From: Polymorphobacter multimanifer
Lineage (GTDB): Bacteria; Pseudomonadota; Alphaproteobacteria; Sphingomonadales; Sphingomonadaceae
Assembly (NCBI RefSeq): GCF_014205635.1
Contig: NZ_JACIIV010000001.1
Location: 62,001-126,000, forward strand
Direction of reading: 5' to 3'
Length of the DNA stretch: 64,000 nt
The notes under the pieces are model-generated. The model was given only the letters and a program-made list of their open reading frames with translations. It ran no database searches and was not told where the DNA came from. Position 1 is the first letter of the stretch. Every line of letters begins with the position of its first letter. The translations under genes were made by a program, and so were the position numbers. Below are positions 43,227 to 56,759 of the stretch, piece by piece.

Positions 43227-44909
<1,683 letters not shown>

Positions 44910-44940
44910 GTCCCCGCACTTTCGACCAGACGTTAAGGGA

Positions 44941-44970
44941 AGGGCCGCGGCGCAAGCTGCGGCCCTTTTT
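44941..44970 (+). terminator. Intrinsic terminator of groESL
   Basis: AGGGCCGCGGC (44941-44951) pairs with GCTGCGGCCCT (44956-44966, one G-U pair) around a GCAA loop, followed by TTTT. It lies 31 bases after the groEL stop. Confidence 0.88.
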
Positions 44971-44994
44971 CTGTGTTGGGGGGCTGGCCAGGCT

Positions 44995-45031
44995 TATTGT
45001 TTTTCGATACGCTTCATATCGATAAGCAATA
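44995..45031. promoter_or_regulatory. Long dyad before the DUF2975/XRE module
   Basis: TATTGTTTTTCGATA and TATCGATAAGCAATA pair at 13 of 15 positions across a 7-base spacer. The right arm overlaps the AAGGA ribosome-binding site of the first gene, an AT-rich island in GC-rich DNA. Its position fits an operator for the XRE protein encoded two genes downstream. Confidence 0.6.
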
Positions 45032-45042
45032 AGGATTCGGTG

Positions 45043-45555
45043 ATGCAGCTTCAGCGGGTGACGGAGGTGTTCCTGCGCTTGTTCGCACTGGCCAACCTTG
45101 CGGTGGGGGTGGCGCTGGTGGTCGGGCTGGTTGCGTCATTCCCGCTGGAAGGGCGGATGCTGGGGCGGCTGCTGGAGAAATACGGCGCTGCAGTGGACGG
45201 CGAGACGGTGGTCTGGGTCTTGCGGCTGCTGGCGCTGGTCGGGATGGTCGGCGTGCTGCTGCTGCACCGCTTCGTGCGGGCGCTGGGCGCGATGCTCGCC
45301 ACCGTGCGCGCCGGCGATCCGTTCGTGGATGCCAATGCCGATCGGCTGGTGCGGATGGGGTGGGCGCTGCTCGGGCTGCAGCTGCTGCAGCTGCTGTCGG
45401 GCGTGTTCTTCGTTTGGTTCGGGCGGCTGGGGGTGGAGACTTCCACCTGGACCCCCTCCTTCGGCGGCTGGCTGGGGGTTCTGCTGGCGTTCGTGCTGGC
45501 GCGGGTATTCCGGCACGGCGCGGCGATGCGCGACGACCTGGCGATGACGGTCTGA
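45043..45555 (+). CDS. DUF2975 membrane protein
   Basis: 170 residues with four membrane segments at about 12-33, 57-78, 104-127 and 141-155. The middle loop VRAGDPFVDANADRLVRMGWALLG is the hallmark of DUF2975 proteins. These are regularly encoded next to a small XRE (YozG-type) regulator, as here, and are suspected of controlling it, but no function is proven. AAGGA lies 7 bases before the ATG, inside a large dyad. Confidence 0.88.
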   Translation: MQLQRVTEVFLRLFALANLAVGVALVVGLVASFPLEGRMLGRLLEKYGAAVDGETVVWVLRLLALVGMVGVLLLHRFVRALGAMLATVRAGDPFVDANADRLVRMGWALLGLQLLQLLSGVFFVWFGRLGVETSTWTPSFGGWLGVLLAFVLARVFRHGAAMRDDLAMTV

Positions 45556-45559
45556 CGCG

Positions 45560-45790
45560 GTGCCACTGGTGATCCATCTCGATGCGCTGCTGCATGAGCG
45601 GCGGATGACGCTGACCGAGCTTGCAGGGGCGGTGGACCTGACGCTCGCCAATCTATCGATCCTGAAGACCGGCAAGGCGCGCGCGATCCGCTTTTCGACA
45701 CTGGAAGCGATCTGCGTGGCGCTCGACTGCCAGCCGGGGGACCTGATCCGCCATGTGGCCGATGATGGGGAGACGACCGATGCTGAATGA
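45560..45790 (+). CDS. Small XRE (YozG-type) regulator
   Basis: 76 residues, a minimal Cro-type helix-turn-helix: HLDALLHERRMTLTELAGAVDLTLANLSILKTGKARAIRFSTLEAICVALDCQPGDLI. Such regulators accompany DUF2975 proteins. It starts with GTG 4 bases after the DUF2975 stop and its end overlaps the next gene by 11 bases, so three genes form one operon. A second GTG three codons later could also serve. Autoregulation through the upstream dyad is likely. Confidence 0.88.
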   Translation: MPLVIHLDALLHERRMTLTELAGAVDLTLANLSILKTGKARAIRFSTLEAICVALDCQPGDLIRHVADDGETTDAE

Positions 45791-46556
45791 GATCCTTGAG
45801 GCTTATCGCCGTTCGGGGCGCTTCGTGCGCGCCTGCCCCTGGGTGGTGCTGGCTGCGGTGGCGGTGGAGCTTGCGCAGCACGCTGCCGAGATCAGCCTCG
45901 GCATCTATGACAGCAAGGCGCAGGCGCAGGCGATGGAGGGGGCGCCGCTCCGCATGGGAATCAGCCATGGCAAGGTGCTGGTGCTGGCGCTGCTCGGCTA
46001 TGCGGTGGCGCGCTTCCTGGCATTCGATGACGATGCGCGGGCGGCGGTGCGACTGGAGCCGGCCGCGATGCGGCTGTTCGGCTGGGTGCTGGCGTTCGGC
46101 GCATTGTGGACGGTCATCGGCCTCGATGGCCGACCGATGTTGATGGCGCTGGGGGTCGATGGGCGCACGGCCGGCATCGCGGTGGCGGTGGTGGCGGTGG
46201 TTGGGTTCGTGCTGCAAGTGATGCTGGCGCCGTGGAAGATTGCGGCACCGCTCGGCAATCCGGCGATCGGGTTCACCCGGTCGATCGCGCTGGCGTGGCG
46301 GCATTTGCCTTGGGGGCTTGGCTTTGTGCTGCTCGCGGTGCTGCCGGTGATGGCGTTGCATTATGCACTGTTTCTGGGCGCAATCGGCCATGGCCGTGCC
46401 GTGGCATGGGTGATGGCGACGCTCGATGCGCTGGTGGTGGGGTATCTCGGCGTGCTGCTGATTGCGGTGGAATATGTGTTTGCGCGGCGGGCGGCGGCGG
46501 CGAACGGGGAGTCGCTGTTGCCGGCCGCGGAGATGACGGTGGGGGTAGCGGCCTAG
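45780..46556 (+). CDS. Multi-helix membrane protein of the DUF2975 module
   Basis: 258 residues with about five or six membrane segments (near 20-38, 62-80, 101-122, 130-152, 181-205 and 215-240). I recognise no named family. The ATG lies within the XRE gene. The arrangement membrane protein - XRE - membrane protein suggests a small membrane-regulated circuit. Its stop overlaps the convergent lipoprotein gene by 4 bases. Confidence 0.78.
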   Translation: MLNEILEAYRRSGRFVRACPWVVLAAVAVELAQHAAEISLGIYDSKAQAQAMEGAPLRMGISHGKVLVLALLGYAVARFLAFDDDARAAVRLEPAAMRLFGWVLAFGALWTVIGLDGRPMLMALGVDGRTAGIAVAVVAVVGFVLQVMLAPWKIAAPLGNPAIGFTRSIALAWRHLPWGLGFVLLAVLPVMALHYALFLGAIGHGRAVAWVMATLDALVVGYLGVLLIAVEYVFARRAAAANGESLLPAAEMTVGVAA

Positions 46557-46699
46557 AGTCCCGCCTCGGCGCGGGCGGCGTCCACATCGGCGCTGGCCTT
46601 GGCGGTGAGGGCGGCTTCGTCGCCGGTGGCCGGAGCTTCGGGGGTGTCGGTGTTGCAGGCGGCCAAGGTGAGGGCCAGAAGGGTGATGATGGTGCGCAT
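46553..46699 (-). CDS. Small lipoprotein
   Basis: 48 residues: MRTIITLLALTLAACNTD has a lipobox (LAAC) with Cys15, followed by a short Thr/Pro/Ala/Asp chain ending KASADVDAARAEAGL. Such short lipoproteins are common and of unknown use. The reading frame is open far upstream, but only this start yields a signal sequence. It ends by a 4-base overlap with the convergent membrane protein gene. Confidence 0.6.
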   Translation of the reverse strand: MRTIITLLALTLAACNTDTPEAPATGDEAALTAKASADVDAARAEAGL

Positions 46700-46725
46700 G
46701 GGCGGCTGATAGCAGGGTGGGGGCG

Positions 46726-47463
46726 ATGGGGCTATATTCGGAAAAGCTGTTTCCATGGTTGCTCGACCGCGCACTTTCGCACCCGCGGATCGAGGCGCGG
46801 CGGGCGGCACTCGTGGGGCAGGCGGTGGGCGAAGTGCTCGAGATCGGCTTCGGATCGGGGGCGACCTTGCCGTTCTACGACCCCGCAAAGGTGCACCGGC
46901 TGACGGTGATCGAGCCGAGCGAGGGGATGAACCGGCGCGCGGCGGCGCGGCTGGCGAAGGCTGTGTTGCCGGTGCGCGCAGTGACCGGGGCAGGGGAGCG
47001 GCTGCCATTCGGCGACGCGGAATTCGATACGGTGGTGGTGTGCCTGACTTTGTGCTCGGTGCGCGACCCGGCGGCGGTGCTGCGCGAGGTGCGGCGGGTG
47101 CTGAAGCCGGGTGGCTGCTTCCTGTTTCTGGAGCATGTGCTTTCGGGCGAGCCGAAGCGGGCGCTCTGGCAGCGGCGGCTGACGCCGATCCAGAAACTGG
47201 TGGGGGTCGGGTGCCATCTCGACCGGGACACGGCGGCGCTGGTGCGCGCGGCGGGGTTCGAGGGGGTGGTGAGTGCGGCGGAGGAGGAGCGGGCGTTCGG
47301 AGCGCTGGCACCGCTGGCGCCGCTGGTGGCGGGATCGGTGCGTCAGGGCTTTTCGGGCGGCGGTGCCGGCGCGGCTTCGGCTTCCGGCACTGGCTCGGGT
47401 TCGGCGGCTTCGGCCTCCTCATATTCCTCGAGCTCTTCGGCGGTCGGCGGCGGGTTGCCATAG
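46726..47463 (+). CDS. Class I SAM-dependent methyltransferase
   Basis: 245 residues of a UbiE/COQ5-like methyltransferase: motif I LEIGFGSGATLPFY, VIEPSEGMNRRAA, the post-II GDAEFDTVVVCLTLCSV, and VLKPGGCFLFLEHVL. Substrate unknown. After about residue 206 the chain becomes a low-complexity Ser/Gly/Ala tail (GGGAGAASASGTGSGSAAS) which lies on the complement of the mlaA C-terminal coding region. The normal fold ends before this tail, so the extension may be a consequence of losing the original stop. Confidence 0.85.
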   Translation: MGLYSEKLFPWLLDRALSHPRIEARRAALVGQAVGEVLEIGFGSGATLPFYDPAKVHRLTVIEPSEGMNRRAAARLAKAVLPVRAVTGAGERLPFGDAEFDTVVVCLTLCSVRDPAAVLREVRRVLKPGGCFLFLEHVLSGEPKRALWQRRLTPIQKLVGVGCHLDRDTAALVRAAGFEGVVSAAEEERAFGALAPLAPLVAGSVRQGFSGGGAGAASASGTGSGSAASASSYSSSSSAVGGGLP

Positions 47464-48164
47464 TAGAGCTGCGCGCGGCGGCGCTGGAGGTAGGCGGATT
47501 TGATGAGGGTGTATTCGTCGAGACTGTCGGCGAGAACGGCATCGCCGCCGGCATCGATCAGCCGTGAGCGCAGCTCGACGACGCGGCCGGTGATCTGGCC
47601 GGCGCGCCAGTAGAGGCTGGGGCTGAGGGCGGCGTTGCGCGCGATGTCGGCGGGATCGAGGACGAAATCGACCGGGGTCATCAGGGCATCGCGAAGCGTG
47701 CCGGGGCCGAAGAAGGGCAGCATGACATAGGGGCCGGGCTTGACGCCCCACATGGCGAGGGTCTGCCCCCAATCGGTGTTCGACTGCGGGCGGCCGAGAT
47801 CGGTGGCGTTGTCCGCCAGCCCGCCGATGCCGAGCGTGGTGTTGATGATCAGCCGATCGAGACTGCGGAAAGCAAGCTTGACCTTGCCCTGCAGCAGATA
47901 ACCCATGAAATTCCGCGGCTCGGAGTAATTCTGGTAGACGTTGGTGACAGCTGTGCGCCCTGCTGGCGGAACTGCCGCGCGATAGACCTGGGTGACGGGC
48001 TTGACCGCATAGCGATCGAGCTTCTTGTTGAGGGCGTAGACGCGGCGATTGGTCGCCTCCCAGGGGTCTGCCTCGGCGCTTTCGAGGCTGAGGGACTGCG
48101 GGGTGGCACAGGCGGCAAGCGCCAAGGCGGGAGCAAGGGCGAAAAGCAGGGTCGAAACACGCAT
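47343..48164 (-). CDS. mlaA: MlaA/VacJ lipoprotein
   Basis: 273 residues. Signal peptide with lipobox LAAC at Cys19. The MlaA domain follows: DPWEATNRRVYALNKKLDRY, AVTNVYQNYSEPRNFMGYLLQGK, INTTLGIGGLADNATDLG, DWGQTLAMWGVKPGPYVMLPFFGPGTLRDAL. It forms the outer-membrane part of the Mla system, removing misplaced phospholipids and passing them to MlaC. The C-terminus (about 243-273) is an acidic Glu/Pro/Ala tail, coded opposite the end of the methyltransferase gene over 121 bases. Confidence 0.94.
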   Translation of the reverse strand: MRVSTLLFALAPALALAACATPQSLSLESAEADPWEATNRRVYALNKKLDRYAVKPVTQVYRAAVPPAGRTAVTNVYQNYSEPRNFMGYLLQGKVKLAFRSLDRLIINTTLGIGGLADNATDLGRPQSNTDWGQTLAMWGVKPGPYVMLPFFGPGTLRDALMTPVDFVLDPADIARNAALSPSLYWRAGQITGRVVELRSRLIDAGGDAVLADSLDEYTLIKSAYLQRRRAQLYYGNPPPTAEELEEYEEAEAAEPEPVPEAEAAPAPPPEKP

Positions 48165-48234
48165 CGACCTTGCGTTGCACAGCCAGCGCGCCGCGGCAAG
48201 CGCGCGGATGCGACGAAGCGCAGCATTGGCTCGC

Positions 48235-48262
48235 TTGACACATATAAAGATATCTTTATGTC
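48235..48262 (+). promoter_or_regulatory. sahR-met operon promoter
   Basis: TTGACA (48235-48240) is a consensus -35. With a 16-base spacer the -10 is TATGTC (48257-48262). Transcription would then begin at or within a few bases of the ATG at 48271, so the mRNA may be leaderless; no Shine-Dalgarno sequence precedes that ATG. Confidence 0.65.
48244..48259. promoter_or_regulatory. SahR-type palindromic operator
   Basis: ATAAAGATATCTTTAT is a perfect 16-bp palindrome lying between the -35 and -10 boxes of the operon promoter. The position would let a bound dimer block RNA polymerase. AT-rich dyads of this kind are known for SahR-type ArsR regulators of the methionine cycle. Confidence 0.8.
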
Positions 48263-48270
48263 ATCCGTGG

Positions 48271-49209
48271 ATGGAACGATTGCTCGATGTTTTCGGCGCG
48301 TTGGCGGACCCGAGCCGGGTGCGGCTGCTGCTGCTCGTGCGATCGATGGAGCTTTCGGTGGGCGAGCTTGCGCAGCTGATCGCGCAGAGCCAGCCGCGGG
48401 TCTCGCGGCATCTGCGCATCCTGGCCGAAGCCGGGCTGGTGGCGCGGCTGCGCGAGGGGGCCTGGGTGTTCGTGCGGCTGGGGGACCCGGCGATCACCGG
48501 CCCGGTGCTGGCGGCGATCGACGCACTGGGCGGCTTCGAAGGCGTGGCCGTGGAGGATCGGGCGCGGCTGGCAATGGTGCGCGCTGAACGCGCGGCGGCG
48601 GCCGACAGCTGGTTTGCGGCCCACGCCGCGGATTGGGACCGCGAGCGCTCGCTGTTCACGCAGGAGACCGAGGTGGAAGCGGCGATCGTCGCGGCGCTGG
48701 ACGGGCGGCCGCTTGGGGAGCTGGTCGATGTCGGCACCGGCACCGGCCGGATGATCGAGCTTCTGGGGCCGCGGGCATCGAGCGCGCTGGGCGTCGATCG
48801 CAACCCCGAGATGCTGCGGCTGGCGCGCGGGCGGATCGAGGCAGCCGGGTTGCCACAGGCGCAGGTGCGCTTCGGGGACATGTATGATCTGCCGCGCGAC
48901 GATGCGAGCGCCGATGTCGTGGTGCTGCACCAGGTGCTGCACTTTGCCGACGATCCTGCGGCGGTGGTTGGCGAGGCGGTGCGGGTGCTGCGCCCGGGCG
49001 GCCGGCTGCTGATCATCGACCTGGCGTCGCATGAGCGCGAGCAGCTGCGCGCCGAGCGCCGGCATCTGCGGCTCGGGTTTGCCGATGAGGCGGTGGTGGG
49101 GTGGATGGCGACGGCAGGGCTGGACGCGACCGTCGCGGCGCATCTGCCGCCGACCGAGGGACTGGCAGTGACGATCTGGCTCGGCGAAGCGCCGGGACCG
49201 ACGGCGTGA
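48271..49209 (+). CDS. sahR: ArsR regulator fused to a SAM-type methyltransferase domain (SahR-like)
   Basis: 312 residues. Residues about 1-90 form an ArsR winged helix (LLDVFGALADPSRVRLLLLVRSMELSVGELAQLIAQSQPRVSRHLRILAEAGLV). Residues about 140-290 form a class I methyltransferase-like domain (VDVGTGTGRMIELLG, GVDRNPEMLRLAR, FGDMYDLPRDDASADVVVLHQVLHF, LRPGGRLLIIDLASHE). The domain may bind S-adenosylhomocysteine as a signal rather than catalyse. Alphaproteobacterial regulators of this architecture precede metF/metH, as here. No metal-binding cysteines of classical ArsR proteins are seen. It heads the metF-metH operon, 13 bases before metF. Confidence 0.9.
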   Translation: MERLLDVFGALADPSRVRLLLLVRSMELSVGELAQLIAQSQPRVSRHLRILAEAGLVARLREGAWVFVRLGDPAITGPVLAAIDALGGFEGVAVEDRARLAMVRAERAAAADSWFAAHAADWDRERSLFTQETEVEAAIVAALDGRPLGELVDVGTGTGRMIELLGPRASSALGVDRNPEMLRLARGRIEAAGLPQAQVRFGDMYDLPRDDASADVVVLHQVLHFADDPAAVVGEAVRVLRPGGRLLIIDLASHEREQLRAERRHLRLGFADEAVVGWMATAGLDATVAAHLPPTEGLAVTIWLGEAPGPTA

Positions 49210-49222
49210 GGGAGAGAAGGCG

Positions 49223-50170
49223 ATGACGAGCAACCCCGTGAGCGAAGCCGAACGCGCCTGGAACCCGCCGCTGTTTGCCGATGTGCCCGGCGACATCGGC
49301 GTGAGCTTCGAGTTCTTCCCGCCCAAGACGCCGGCGATGGAAGCGACGCTTTGGGAAAGCTTCGAGACGCTGAAGCCGCTCGCACCCCGCTTTGTTTCGG
49401 TGACCTACGGCGCCGGTGGTTCGACGCGCGAGCGCACCCACAACACCGTGGCGCGGATTGCCGGGAGCGTGGTGCCGGCAGCGGCGCACCTGACCTGCGT
49501 CGATGCGAGTTGTGACGACATTGCCGAAGTGGCCGAGGCCTATTGGGAAGCCGGTGTGCGGCACATCGTGGCGCTGCGCGGCGATCCGCCCAAGGGACCG
49601 AATGGCGTGGCGCGGTTCGAGGCGCGGCCCAATGGCTATGCCAACGCTGCAGCGCTGGTGGCGGGGCTGAAGCGGCACCGGGACTTCGAAGTGTCGGTGG
49701 GTTGCTATCCCGAGGTCCATCCCGAGGCCAGCTGTGCCGCGGCGGACATGGATGCGCTGAAAGCCAAGATCGACGCCGGCGCCAGCCGCGGCATCAGCCA
49801 GTTCTTCTTCGAGCCCGAGACCTTCCTGCGCTTCCGCGACCGCGCGGCGGCGGCGGGGATCTCTGCCGAGATGGTGCCGGGCATCCTGCCGGTGACCAAT
49901 TTCGCCAATCTGAAGCGCATGGCCGGGCCGTGCGGCACGCAGGTGCCCGACTGGATGGCGCGGCTGTTCGAGGGGCTCGACGACAAGCCCGCCGCGCGGC
50001 AGTTGGTGGCGGCGACGGTAGCGGCGGAGTTGTGCCGGCGTCTCTATGCCGGCGGCGTGCGCCACTTCCACTTCTACACGCTCAATCGCGCCGAACTGGC
50101 CTATGCCATCTGCCACATGCTGGGCCTGCGCCCGCAATTGACCCCGACAGGCCTGGAGGCCGCCGCATGA
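49223..50170 (+). CDS. metF: 5,10-methylenetetrahydrofolate reductase
   Basis: Reduces methylene-THF to methyl-THF, the methyl donor for methionine synthase. It has 315 residues: SFEFFPPKTPAMEATLWE at the start, VTYGAGGSTRERTH, a TIM barrel with HIVALRGDPP, and FFFEPETFLRFRDR. FAD-binding residues lie in these blocks. GGGAGAGAAGGCG precedes the ATG. The stop overlaps the start of metH part 1 (ATGA). Confidence 0.96.
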   Translation: MTSNPVSEAERAWNPPLFADVPGDIGVSFEFFPPKTPAMEATLWESFETLKPLAPRFVSVTYGAGGSTRERTHNTVARIAGSVVPAAAHLTCVDASCDDIAEVAEAYWEAGVRHIVALRGDPPKGPNGVARFEARPNGYANAAALVAGLKRHRDFEVSVGCYPEVHPEASCAAADMDALKAKIDAGASRGISQFFFEPETFLRFRDRAAAAGISAEMVPGILPVTNFANLKRMAGPCGTQVPDWMARLFEGLDDKPAARQLVAATVAAELCRRLYAGGVRHFHFYTLNRAELAYAICHMLGLRPQLTPTGLEAAA

Positions 50171-51209
50171 CAATTGCCGATGATCTTCGCAGCGCTGCCG
50201 CCACGCGCATCCTCATCAAGGATGGCCCCTATGGCACCGCCATCCAGGGACTGGGGCTGGAGGAGGCCGATTATCTGGGCGGGCTCGAGTTGAACCGCGA
50301 CCAGAAGGGCAACAACGATATTCTCAACATCACCCGGGCCGAGGCCATCAGGGGTGTGGCGCAATCCTATGTCGATGCAGGGGCGGATATTCTCGCGACC
50401 AACACCTTCAACGCCAACCGTATCAGCCAGGCCGATTATGGTGCCGAGCATATGGTGCGCGAGATCAACCTCGCGGCGGCGGCGATCATCCGCGATGTGG
50501 TCGACCGGGCGAGCGCTGTCGATGGCCGCCAGCGGTTTGTGGCGGGGTCGCTTGGGCCGACGAACAAGACGCTGTCGCTTTCGCCCAAGGTCGAGGACCC
50601 GGGGTTTCGCGAGGTCGATTTCGATGGGGTGAAGAGCGTGTATCGCGAGCAGATCGACGCGCTTCTCGAAGGCGGGGTGGACTTCATTCTGATCGAGACG
50701 GTGTTCGACACATTGAATGCCAAGGCGGCGGCGTTTGCGGCGACCGAGGCTGGCGATGCGCTGGGCCGCGAAGTGCCGGTGATGCTGTCGATGACGTTGA
50801 CCGACCTTTCGGGGCGCAACCTCTCGGGCCAGACGGTCGAGGCTTTCTGGCATTCGATCCGCCATGTGAAGCCGGTGGCGGTGGGGCTGAACTGCTCGTT
50901 CGGCGCGACCGAGCTTCGCCCGCATGTGGTGGCGCTGGCCGGCGCTGCCGACACGCTGATCCAGGTTTATCCAAATGCCGGGCTGCCGAATGATCTCGGC
51001 GAATATGACGAGCTTCCCGAGACGACGGCGAAGCTGATCGACGGCTGGGCGCAGGAGGGGTTGATCAACATCGTCGGCGGGTGCTGCGGCACGACGCCGG
51101 CGCATATTGCCGCGATGGCGCGGGCAGTGGCGGGTCGGAGCCCACGCAATGTCCCCGAGAAGGGCGCGATGTTGCGGCTTTCCGGCCTTGAAGCAGCGAG
51201 TTTTGCAGC

Positions 51210-51213
<4 letters not shown>
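50167..51213 (+). CDS. metH: Methionine synthase, homocysteine-binding half
   Basis: 348 residues, a stand-alone homocysteine S-methyltransferase domain. Its zinc ligands are the cysteine in GLNCSFGA and the pair in [11 protein letters not shown]. The Gly-rich [14 protein letters not shown] and NTFNANRI blocks are typical. It corresponds to about the first 330 residues of the single-chain MetH; the folate, cobalamin and activation domains are encoded by the next gene, whose start overlaps this stop by 4 bases. Both must form a complex for activity. Confidence 0.94.
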
Positions 51214-53834
<2,621 letters not shown>

Positions 53835-53880
53835 ACGCCGCCACTGCAAGCAGTGTCCCAGCCAAGGGGTCTGGAGCCTG

Positions 53881-53918
53881 AGGCCCCGGCCGCCGGAGGC
53901 CTTTTCACTGGCGTTTTT
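53881..53918 (+). terminator. Terminator of the methionine operon
   Basis: AGGCCCCGG (53881-53889) pairs with CCGGAGGCCT (53893-53902) with one bulged base, followed by TTTT and, ten bases on, TTTTTT. It carries the CCGGAGGC motif seen in the repeat at 11.1 kb. A smaller CACTGC/GCAGTG hairpin precedes it at 53842-53855. Confidence 0.7.
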
Positions 53919-53980
53919 TCGCCCCAGCCGCTAGGTGGGACGGAACTGTTGCAACTGCAGAAACGGACTGAATAACCCCC

Positions 53981-56668
53981 ATGGAATCAGAGGTTTTGCC
54001 ACCCGGCGAGGGCCCGGATATTCAGCCGATCTCGATCGTGACTGAAATGCGCACCTCGTTCCTCGACTATGCGATGTCGGTGATCGTGGCGCGCGCACTT
54101 CCGGATGTGCGCGACGGACTGAAGCCGGTGCATCGGCGCATTCTGTGGGGCAGCTTCGAGAACGGCTTCGTGCAGGGCAAGCCGTATCGCAAGTCGGCGC
54201 GCATCGTCGGCGACGTGATGGGCAAATATCACCCGCACGGCGACAGCGCGATCTACGATGCCCTGGCGCGGATGACGCAGGACTGGTCGATGCGGCTGCC
54301 GCTCATCGACGGCCAGGGCAATTTCGGCTCGATGGACCCCGATGCGCCCGCGGCGATGCGCTACACCGAGGCGCGGCTGGCGAAGCCGGCGGAAGCGCTG
54401 CTGGCGGATATCGACAAGGACACGGTCGACTTCATCCCCAATTACGATGGCTCGGAGCGCGAACCGGCGGTGCTGCCGGCGCGGTTTCCGAACCTGCTCG
54501 TCAATGGTGCCGGCGGCATCGCGGTGGGCATGGCGACCAACATTCCGCCGCACAACCTCAACGAGGTTGTCGATGCCGTGGTGGCGTATCTCGACAATCC
54601 GGCGATCGATGTCGATGGGCTGATGGCGCATCTGCCGGCGCCCGATTTCCCGACCGGTGGGCTCATCCTCGGCACGCATGGCGTGCGGCAGGCGTATCTG
54701 ACCGGGCGCGGCGGGCTGATGATGCGTTCGCGGCATGTGATCGAGAGCGGGCGCGGCGACAAGCAGACGCTGGTGCTGACCGAAATCCCGTTCCAGCAGG
54801 GCAAGAATGCGCTGGTCGAGAAGATCGCCGAGGCGGTGAAGGACAAGCGGATCGAGGGCATTTCCGATCTGCGCGACGAGAGCAACCGCGAGGGCGTGCG
54901 CATCGTCATGGAATTGAAGCGCGATGCCAACCCCGAGGTGGTCTTGAACCAGCTCTGGCGGCACACGCCGGCGCAGCAGAGCTTCAGCCTCAACATGCTC
55001 GCCATCCGCGGCGGGCGGCCTGAGCTGATGGGGCTGGTCGAGATCATCAAGGCGTTCGTGAGCTTCCGCGAGGAGGTGATCACGCGGCGCTCGAAGCACG
55101 AGCTCGCCAAGGCGCGCGAGCGGGCGCATCTTTTGATCGGGCTGGTGATTGCGGTGAGCAACCTCGATGAGGTGGTGGCGATCATCCGTGGGTCGGCCAC
55201 GCCGGCGGCGGCGCGCGAGGCGCTGCTGGCGCGCGACTGGGATGCAACCGAGATCCGCAGCTATCTGGAGCTGGTGGAGGCCGATGCGCGTGCGGGCGAT
55301 GCCGAGACGATCCATCTTTCCGAAGCGCAGGTTCGCGCCATCCTCGAGCTGCGGCTGGCAAAGCTGACGGCACTTGGTCGTGAGGAGATCGGTGGCGAAT
55401 TGAAAGAGCTGGCGGCGGTCATTGCCGCTTTGCTCGAGATCCTCGGCGATCGGCTGAAGCTCTATGCGGTGATGCGCGAAGAGCTGCGGCAGGTAACCGA
55501 CCAGTTCCAGATGAAGCGTCGCTCCGAGATCACCGCCAGCGGCGATGATATCGACGACGAGGACCTGATCGACCGTGAGGACATGGTGGTGACGGTGACG
55601 ATGGATGGCTGGATCAAGCGCGTGCCGCTTTCCGACTATCGCGCCCAGAAGCGCGGCGGCAAGGGCCGCTCGGGCATGGCCACCAAGGCCGAGGATGCGA
55701 TCACGACGCTGTTCGTCACCTCGACCCACAATCCGGTGCTGTTCTTCTCGTCGGCGGGCAAGGTCTATCGGCAGAAGGTGTGGAAACTGCCGCAGGGCAG
55801 CCCGCAGGCGCGCGGCCGGCCGCTGGCCAATCTGCTGCCGCTCGCACCTGACGAGAAGATCACCAGCGTGCTGTCCCTGCCCGAGGATGAGGCGGAGTGG
55901 GGCCGGCTCCATGTGATGTTCGCGACCTGCCTCGGCAGCGTGCGGCGCAACGCGATGGATGCCTTCACCAATGTGCCCACCGCCGGCAAGCTGGCGATCC
56001 GCTTCGAGGATGGCGATGAAGACCGGCTCGTCGGCGTGGCGCTTTGCGACGAGGCCGAGGATGTTCTGCTGACCGCCAGGAGCGGCAAGGCGATCCGGTT
56101 CGCGGTGTCGGATGTGCGCGAGTTCGTGTCGCGCACCTCGACCGGCGTGCGCGGCATGACACTGGCGGCTGATGACGCGGTGATCTCGATGTCGATCCTG
56201 AAGGCCTTCGATGCGAGCCCGCAGGAGCGCGAGGATTATCTGAAGGCCGCCGCCTGGAAGCCCGAGCCCGGCGAGCGTGTGCTTTCGGAGACGCGGATGA
56301 AAGCCTTTGCCGAGGCTGAGGAGTTCATCCTCACGGTCACCGCCAATGGCTATGGCAAGCGGTCATCGGCGTTCGAGTATCGCCAGTCGGGGCGCGGCGG
56401 GCAGGGGATCCGGACGATCGGCGAGCATGCGCGCAACGGGGCGATCGTGGCGAGCTTCACCGCGAGCGACGACGACCAGCTGATGCTGGTGACCGACCAG
56501 GCGAAGCTGATCCGCGTGCGGGTGGGCGAGGTCGGCATCCGGGGCCGGTCGACGCTCGGCGTGACCCTGTTCGATGTTGCCGACAACGAGCATGTGGTGT
56601 CGGTGGCGCTGATCCCGGCTGATGACGCGCCGGAAGAAGACGCTTCGGTGGACGCCAGCGACAGCTGA
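53981..56668 (+). CDS. gyrA: DNA gyrase subunit A
   Basis: 895 residues. The N-terminal breakage-reunion domain has the quinolone-determining segment HPHGDSAIYD with S89 and D93, the wild-type residues, and the catalytic Y128 in AAMRYTE. The C-terminal beta-pinwheel has the GyrA box Q556-G562 (QKRGGKG), which identifies gyrase rather than topoisomerase IV. It introduces negative supercoils together with GyrB, not encoded here. An acidic C-terminal tail follows the last blade. No strong ribosome-binding site precedes the ATG. Confidence 0.96.
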   Translation: MESEVLPPGEGPDIQPISIVTEMRTSFLDYAMSVIVARALPDVRDGLKPVHRRILWGSFENGFVQGKPYRKSARIVGDVMGKYHPHGDSAIYDALARMTQDWSMRLPLIDGQGNFGSMDPDAPAAMRYTEARLAKPAEALLADIDKDTVDFIPNYDGSEREPAVLPARFPNLLVNGAGGIAVGMATNIPPHNLNEVVDAVVAYLDNPAIDVDGLMAHLPAPDFPTGGLILGTHGVRQAYLTGRGGLMMRSRHVIESGRGDKQTLVLTEIPFQQGKNALVEKIAEAVKDKRIEGISDLRDESNREGVRIVMELKRDANPEVVLNQLWRHTPAQQSFSLNMLAIRGGRPELMGLVEIIKAFVSFREEVITRRSKHELAKARERAHLLIGLVIAVSNLDEVVAIIRGSATPAAAREALLARDWDATEIRSYLELVEADARAGDAETIHLSEAQVRAILELRLAKLTALGREEIGGELKELAAVIAALLEILGDRLKLYAVMREELRQVTDQFQMKRRSEITASGDDIDDEDLIDREDMVVTVTMDGWIKRVPLSDYRAQKRGGKGRSGMATKAEDAITTLFVTSTHNPVLFFSSAGKVYRQKVWKLPQGSPQARGRPLANLLPLAPDEKITSVLSLPEDEAEWGRLHVMFATCLGSVRRNAMDAFTNVPTAGKLAIRFEDGDEDRLVGVALCDEAEDVLLTARSGKAIRFAVSDVREFVSRTSTGVRGMTLAADDAVISMSILKAFDASPQEREDYLKAAAWKPEPGERVLSETRMKAFAEAEEFILTVTANGYGKRSSAFEYRQSGRGGQGIRTIGEHARNGAIVASFTASDDDQLMLVTDQAKLIRVRVGEVGIRGRSTLGVTLFDVADNEHVVSVALIPADDAPEEDASVDASDS

Positions 56669-56759
56669 CGCAACATTGGACTTCGCAAAGCATCGTGGCC
56701 GGTGTAATGTCCTACTGCGCTGTGTGGATTATGCGCTGTTCGATCGGGGAGATTATGAA

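Follow-up and report, generated by a model that had tools for sequence, protein, structure and literature searches.

The window, a stretch of 64,000 nucleotides from Polymorphobacter multimanifer, contains sahR, a gene for an ArsR-type protein with a methyltransferase-fold domain, at the head of a row of methionine genes. The features of the locus are as follows.

47343-48164, opposite strand (-): mlaA, the upstream neighbour of sahR
48235..48240, + strand: -35 box TTGACA of the sahR promoter, read directly
48244..48259, strandless: predicted SahR operator core, the perfect 16-bp palindrome ATAAAGATATCTTTAT, from sequence and family comparison
48257..48262, + strand: putative -10 box TATGTC at 16-bp spacing, overlapping the right end of the operator
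48267..48271, + strand: predicted transcription start, giving a leader of 0-4 nt, from the position of the -10 box
48271..49209, + strand: sahR, 312 aa, ArsR-type HTH (residues ~5-75) and class-I methyltransferase-fold domain (~145-260), from Pfam and NCBIfam
49210..49220, + strand: Shine-Dalgarno stretch GGGAGAGAAGG of metF, anti-SD duplex of -8.9 kcal/mol in the 20 nt upstream of the metF start
49223..50170, + strand: metF, methylenetetrahydrofolate reductase (Pfam MTHFR, 1.1e-86), 13 nt 3' of sahR
50167..51213, + strand: metH1, homocysteine-binding part of methionine synthase, 348 aa, an open frame with an ATGA overlap with metF
51210..53834, + strand: metH2, pterin-binding, B12-binding and activation domains of methionine synthase, with an ATGA overlap with metH1

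The gene order sahR-metF-metH1-metH2 bears out the first-pass annotation, which had placed an ArsR-methyltransferase gene before metF and metH. MetH2 matches TIGR02082 with 1162.7 bits as well as the Pfam models Met_synt_B12, Pterin_bind and B12-binding; metH1, named from its position and general knowledge of MetH, is presumably the remaining part of the enzyme. Among 52 near loci, including three repeats of a species, 50 have metF on the same strand directly 3' of sahR, and a metH1 homologue follows sahR in all 19 near loci that offer at least 2 kb of downstream DNA. Two genes upstream of sahR, an ORF (46717-47463, +) resembles a small class-I methyltransferase and is itself a weak match in the SahR protein search (G000:C1:108747-109160, E 1.2e-11). 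At 44914-44975 (+) a sub-threshold Rfam match to the sRNA family BjrC68 (29 bits against a cut-off of 39, E 3.5e-4) lies directly 3' of ORF 43257-44909, whose product resembles GroEL.

Examination of the sahR product for the architecture of SahR revealed an ArsR-type HTH at the N-terminus, linked to a domain of SAM-methyltransferase type (Pfam HTH_5, 1.8e-12; Methyltransf_11, 4.1e-23; NCBIfam HTH_metalloreg, 4e-22). In an alignment of 32 relatives the recognition region QSQPRVSRH is invariant apart from V44, which is nearly so. Likewise invariant are D153, G155, T156, G157, R160, D176 and D203, which we take to be the motifs of the SAM/SAH pocket. The predicted structure has a mean pLDDT of 91.9, and nearly all of its best 50 PDB matches by Foldseek are methyltransferases, several of them bound to SAH; their TM-scores by query length are 0.43-0.51, so that there is no full-length counterpart among these 50. 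A sequence search for structure chains (E <=1e-8) returned 11 chains, none covering both SahR domains. The 312 residues include no cysteine, and the thiolate metal-binding motif of ArsR/SmtB sensors is absent. By sequence, this is the orthologue of a known regulator, the ArsR/methyltransferase-fold protein SahR that represses the SAM cycle.

A perfect 16-bp palindrome had been described between the -35 and -10 boxes of this gene. The palindrome itself is present and, as described, it follows TTGACA and occupies most of the promoter spacer, but it does not stop short of the -10 box, since its end provides the first three bases of TATGTC. The distance from a -10 box to the transcription start is usually 4-8 nt, and this, counted from TATGTC, places the predicted start at 48267-48271. 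The start codon of sahR is the ATG at 48271, 8 nt downstream of the putative -10 box. Another ATG at 48258, contained in the TTTATG at the palindrome end, was rejected as the sahR start, being out of frame and opening a frame of 109 aa. An E. coli-type promoter scan called no promoter at sahR; sphingomonad -10 boxes differ from those of E. coli, and the empty scan is consistent with a -10 box that is weak by E. coli rules. In Novosphingobium more than 80% of sigma-70 promoters are reported to lack T at -7, the last T of the -10 box (PMC8407463), so that TATGTC or TATATC is acceptable in this position.

Within the 64-kb window ATAAAGATATCTTTAT occurs exactly once, and shuffled windows hold on average 0.01 matches to it with up to three mismatches (100 shuffles). 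Palindromicity as evidence by itself was rejected: the window contains one perfect 16-bp palindrome of any sequence as compared to 3.05 on average in 20 copies from a first-order Markov model. Hence weight is laid on comparison and not on symmetry.

For this comparison 149 genomes of the family were searched. A close SahR was found in 132 of them (134 loci, two genomes having two copies), and the other 17, which gave weaker SahR matches only (best E 1.7e-14 or worse), were left out. All 134 upstream regions were examined for an operator with at most four mismatches and an open start. Such an operator is present in 123 loci (123 genomes, 81 genera) and absent within four mismatches in 11 (L015, L016, L125, L147, L148, L149, L151, L153, L159, L172 and L194); metF is not adjacent in L015 and L016 either, and L172 and L194 have seemingly decayed operators at the usual place. 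Taking as start the first in-frame start codon that lies 3 nt or more beyond the -10 hexamer, the gap between the two measures 3-14 nt, most often 7-10, in 118 of the 123 operator-bearing loci (78 genera), with 112 ATG, four GTG and two TTG codons; the five exceptions have gaps of 25, 29, 47, 165 and 165 nt. Short gaps are obtained in 115 of the 123 loci if only ATG is admitted, and in 106 of 111 or 114 of 119 loci if the operator is restricted to two or three mismatches, respectively. The chosen start falls within one residue of Met1 of the P. multimanifer (host) SahR in 116 of the 123. In L145 and L146 the protein is longer by 15 and 27 residues and the gaps still measure 10 and 8 nt, which indicates that the start follows the promoter and not the conserved protein end.

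The promoter elements recur along with the spacing. A -35-like hexamer, of a set picked after inspection of the loci, lies 7-12 nt 5' of the palindrome in 116 of the 123 loci as compared to 4.2% in shuffled upstream sequence, and the -10 hexamer reads TATATG, TATATC or TATGTC in 104 of 118 loci of the family whose operator lies within 60 nt. Many relatives have a longer operator, a palindrome of 20-22 bp that extends across the -10 box. The core of a Shine-Dalgarno sequence (GGAG, GAGG or AGGA) is found in none of the 118 short gaps and once in the 17 nt before the 118 starts, and the anti-SD duplex in the 20 nt before the host sahR reaches -0.9 kcal/mol. Thus the absence of a Shine-Dalgarno sequence, noticed in the first-pass annotation, extends to the family, and the accompanying claim of a transcription start at or next to the ATG finds sequence support in the 8-nt distance at the host locus and in the short gap of 118 out of 123 loci.

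Some loci depart from this layout. The host is closely related to Sandarakinorhabdus: the operator surroundings of the same-genus genomes L006 and L007 are identical to those of S. limnophila (L039) and S. cyanobacteriorum (L053). S. limnophila and its near relatives (L006, L035, L037, L038, L039) no longer have TTGAC; the centre of their palindrome is ATTGCTTT, and 25 nt separate the usual -10 position from the start. The arrangement TTGCTT-N17-GTAAAG-N8-ATG in this group could be a shifted promoter, again ending 8 nt before the ATG. In each of two further genomes (G030 and G113, loci L144 and L142) the SahR match runs across one in-frame TGA, which is maybe just the gene end; their operators, TTAAAG...CTTTAA with four mismatches, belong to the most altered ones. 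In G030 the sites before metK and ahcY are weak too (11.7 and 5.3 bits), perhaps owing to a shifted operator.

As a contrast set served 56 operator-bearing loci among L056-L114, mostly of other alphaproteobacteria. The first-start rule (at least 3 nt after the -10 box), which is biased towards short gaps, yields gaps of 5-103 nt here, with 15 of 56 at 14 nt or less. If the start is instead set at the ATG closest to the conserved protein end, the gaps are 5-160 nt and eight of 56 are this short; these eight include three from Sphingomonadales or Sphingomonadaceae and a fourth, L101, whose protein is 67% identical to the host SahR. Short gaps occur outside the family as well, but they are not the rule there. 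A comparison within the operon was made with metF, which lies downstream in 104 of 110 long loci; the 83 loci with an ATG picked by rule were scored. A Shine-Dalgarno core precedes metF in 39 of these 83, and the median anti-SD energy is -5.7 kcal/mol as compared to +0.6 kcal/mol at the 118 sahR starts of the family.

Concerning further targets, the first-pass annotation had proposed a genome search for the same palindrome before metK and ahcY. Allowing three mismatches, ATAAAGATATCTTTAT is found in only two places of the 3.92-Mb genome, before sahR and, with two mismatches, before metK; for ahcY the expectation holds only in the form of a diverged site. This site was detected with a 20-bp matrix trained on 118 sahR sites of the family only, for which sites were called above 15 bits. 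The matrix assigns 41.9 bits to the host sahR operator (training median 40.8), 27.3 to that of metK and 19.4 to that of ahcY (L003), the last being weak and diverged and yet at the expected place. Besides these three, the only score above zero among 74,590 host-genome positions belongs to a register overlapping the sahR site. The host metK start, position 1581 of locus L002, is an ATG 61 nt past the comparable operator point and preceded by AGAGGTGGG; Shine-Dalgarno-like sequence stands before metK and metF of the host. Hence metK has a related operator, but with a leader.

For metK and ahcY 59 genomes each were searched, and the best-scoring 30 loci of each were scanned together with the host's own. 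Sites above 15 bits are present in 25 of 31 metK loci and 29 of 31 ahcY loci, the host included, as against none of 483 control windows. One of the six metK misses (L231) is an artefact of a contig end and does have a site, of 29.6 bits, three are in genomes in which the family search found no close SahR (G008, G014 and G026), and the remaining two are L236 and L240 (11.7 bits); the ahcY misses are L253 (5.3 bits) and L269 (13.4 bits). Against the reading of these sites as SahR operators count G025 and G017, which gave no close SahR in that search and yet have a metK (32.1 bits) or ahcY (20.4 bits) site. With the operon genes, the metK site and the weak ahcY site, the SahR core regulon of metF, metH, metK and ahcY is represented in the host.

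The position of the operator varies among these targets. Of 27 ahcY loci (one-strand scan of L249-L278 and L003), 22 have it directly 5' of a TTGN box and not in the spacer, a geometry unlike that of sahR. SahR may therefore block the ahcY promoter in a different manner from its own. At metK, the start lies only about 7-10 nt past the corresponding operator point in L225, L231, L234, L247 and L248, and metK may be leaderless too in the genera concerned.

Taken together, we consider it probable, at roughly 85%, that the sahR locus is the control region of a self-repressing, leaderless SahR operon. The earlier proposal of an autoregulated SahR is supported by the protein architecture, the recognition helix, the pocket motifs, the operon and the operators before metK and ahcY. 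We infer binding, repression, SAH as the effector, the start site and leaderless initiation from sequence. A SahR dimer would bind the palindrome, which makes up the spacer and reaches into the -10 box, would thereby keep RNA polymerase off the promoter and would repress sahR itself along with metF-metH1-metH2. Accumulating S-adenosylhomocysteine would occupy the methyltransferase-fold domain and SahR would leave the DNA, whereupon homocysteine remethylation would rise together with the expression of metK and ahcY through their related operators. Transcription would begin at the sahR ATG or no more than about 4 nt from it, and sahR would be translated from a leaderless message.

Autorepression might also be right with the main or a second promoter situated further upstream, the operator then being part of a leader devoid of a Shine-Dalgarno sequence. 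The -10 box of sahR is weak, five family loci have gaps of at least 25 nt, and in Zymomonas about half of the leaderless units are reported to have an upstream leadered start in addition (PMC7566282). An upstream promoter, however, would not constrain the spacing, so that two regularities argue against this arrangement, which we regard as unlikely: in 116 of 123 loci a -35-like box precedes the palindrome by 7-12 nt, and in 118 of 123 the start codon follows the -10 box at a distance of 3-14 nt. Less likely again is SAM instead of SAH as the effector, a suggestion made for SamR, a related regulator in Xanthomonadales. The pocket motifs are compatible with either ligand and Leyn 2014 left the effector of SamR open (PMC4239095), but the case made there for SAM is that metK is the sole SAM-cycle gene of the SamR regulon (PMC4239095), whereas in the family studied here the operator precedes ahcY, the SAH-removing gene, in 29 of 31 loci.

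General models name the protein an ArsR/SmtB metalloregulator, and arsenite methyltransferase models match it below their cut-offs; a sensor of metal or arsenic is nevertheless very improbable for a protein that lacks cysteine, is encoded ahead of metF-metH and has an operator common to metK and ahcY. Control by a SAM or SAH riboswitch, with the palindrome incidental, has a precedent in methionine genes of other Proteobacteria (PMC4239095). No such riboswitch is among the matches with E <=1 in 44900-56700, nor does any reach the gathering score in the host sahR, metK and ahcY loci, and we give this explanation hardly any weight. The self-repressing SahR operon with a leaderless first gene is the reading that we retain.

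The SahR regulon was reportedly described by Novichkov and co-workers in 2014. In Leyn 2014, SahR regulons are reported for seven of seven Sphingomonadales genomes, with sahR, ahcY, metH, metF and metK as core targets and a 20-bp palindromic operator (PMC4239095), and SAH as effector is cited in the literature as demonstrated for a Desulfovibrio SahR. The locus described here shares the ArsR-type repressor with a methyltransferase-like domain, the palindromic operator, here with a perfect 16-bp core, and the targets. The term "leaderless" is absent from the main text of that report (PMC4239095), whereas our survey concerns the operator-promoter-start spacing across the family. Another alphaproteobacterial SahR, that of the rhizobial Ensifer aridi, has predicted sites before sahR, ahcY, metH, metK and bhmT, and the sahR promoter is reported to be up in a sahR mutant, which supports autoregulation (PMC8877191). 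In the literature searched, a conserved leaderless layout of sahR was not found, and where SahR and "leaderless" co-occur among the matches listed, Sahr is an author name. Regulation of the SAM cycle in response to SAH is established knowledge; what the sequence comparison would add is a leaderless layout conserved in the family.

A close parallel in layout is the acuR-acuI-dddL operon of Rhodobacter sphaeroides, whose message starts exactly at the AUG according to 5' RACE (PMC3017554). There, too, the repressor gene comes first, an inverted-repeat operator lies over the promoter and the downstream genes have Shine-Dalgarno sites (PMC3017554), as here metF has one and sahR none. The acuR operon differs in its TetR-family repressor, its co-inducer acrylate and its role in DMSP catabolism (PMC3017554), and its start site is proven whereas that of sahR is predicted, from a spacing that fits a leader of 0-4 nt. 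Regulators from leaderless messages are also cited for lambda cI and Tn1721 tetR (as cited in PMC3017554); these are phage and transposon genes of other repressor families with other effectors. Leaderless messages are not rare in alphaproteobacteria: in Zymomonas they account for 119 of 2,675 TSS-gene pairs, counting leaders of up to 5 nt (PMC7566282), and Caulobacter is reported to have 375 of them (PMC4117421). Transcription start-site data exist for Novosphingobium as well, among them GEO GSE150944 for N. aromaticivorans (PMC7471390). The acuR repressor is reportedly translated at a lower level than the downstream genes (PMC3017554). In Caulobacter leaderless messages are translated as efficiently as leadered ones (PMC4117421), which speaks against assuming that sahR is necessarily poorly translated.

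Recognition of leaderless messages proceeds through initiator fMet-tRNA and IF2 (PMC3017554), and it is conceivable, though in our view a long shot, that the leaderless start itself acts as a second sensor via the supply of initiator fMet-tRNA. As metF has a Shine-Dalgarno sequence and sahR has none, a shortage of methionine or fMet-tRNA would then lower the synthesis of SahR more than that of MetF and MetH, and repression would be relieved before SAH changes. Selection for such a sensor, if true, could explain why the start codon tracks the promoter despite changes in the length of the N-terminus. Independent of a second sensor, promoter, operator and start codon are contained in less than 40 bp, and the short spacing conserved in 78 genera makes this a testable architecture. 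It provides a natural case for the question why autorepressors are often leaderless, and the conserved spacing helps the annotation of start codons in sphingomonads.
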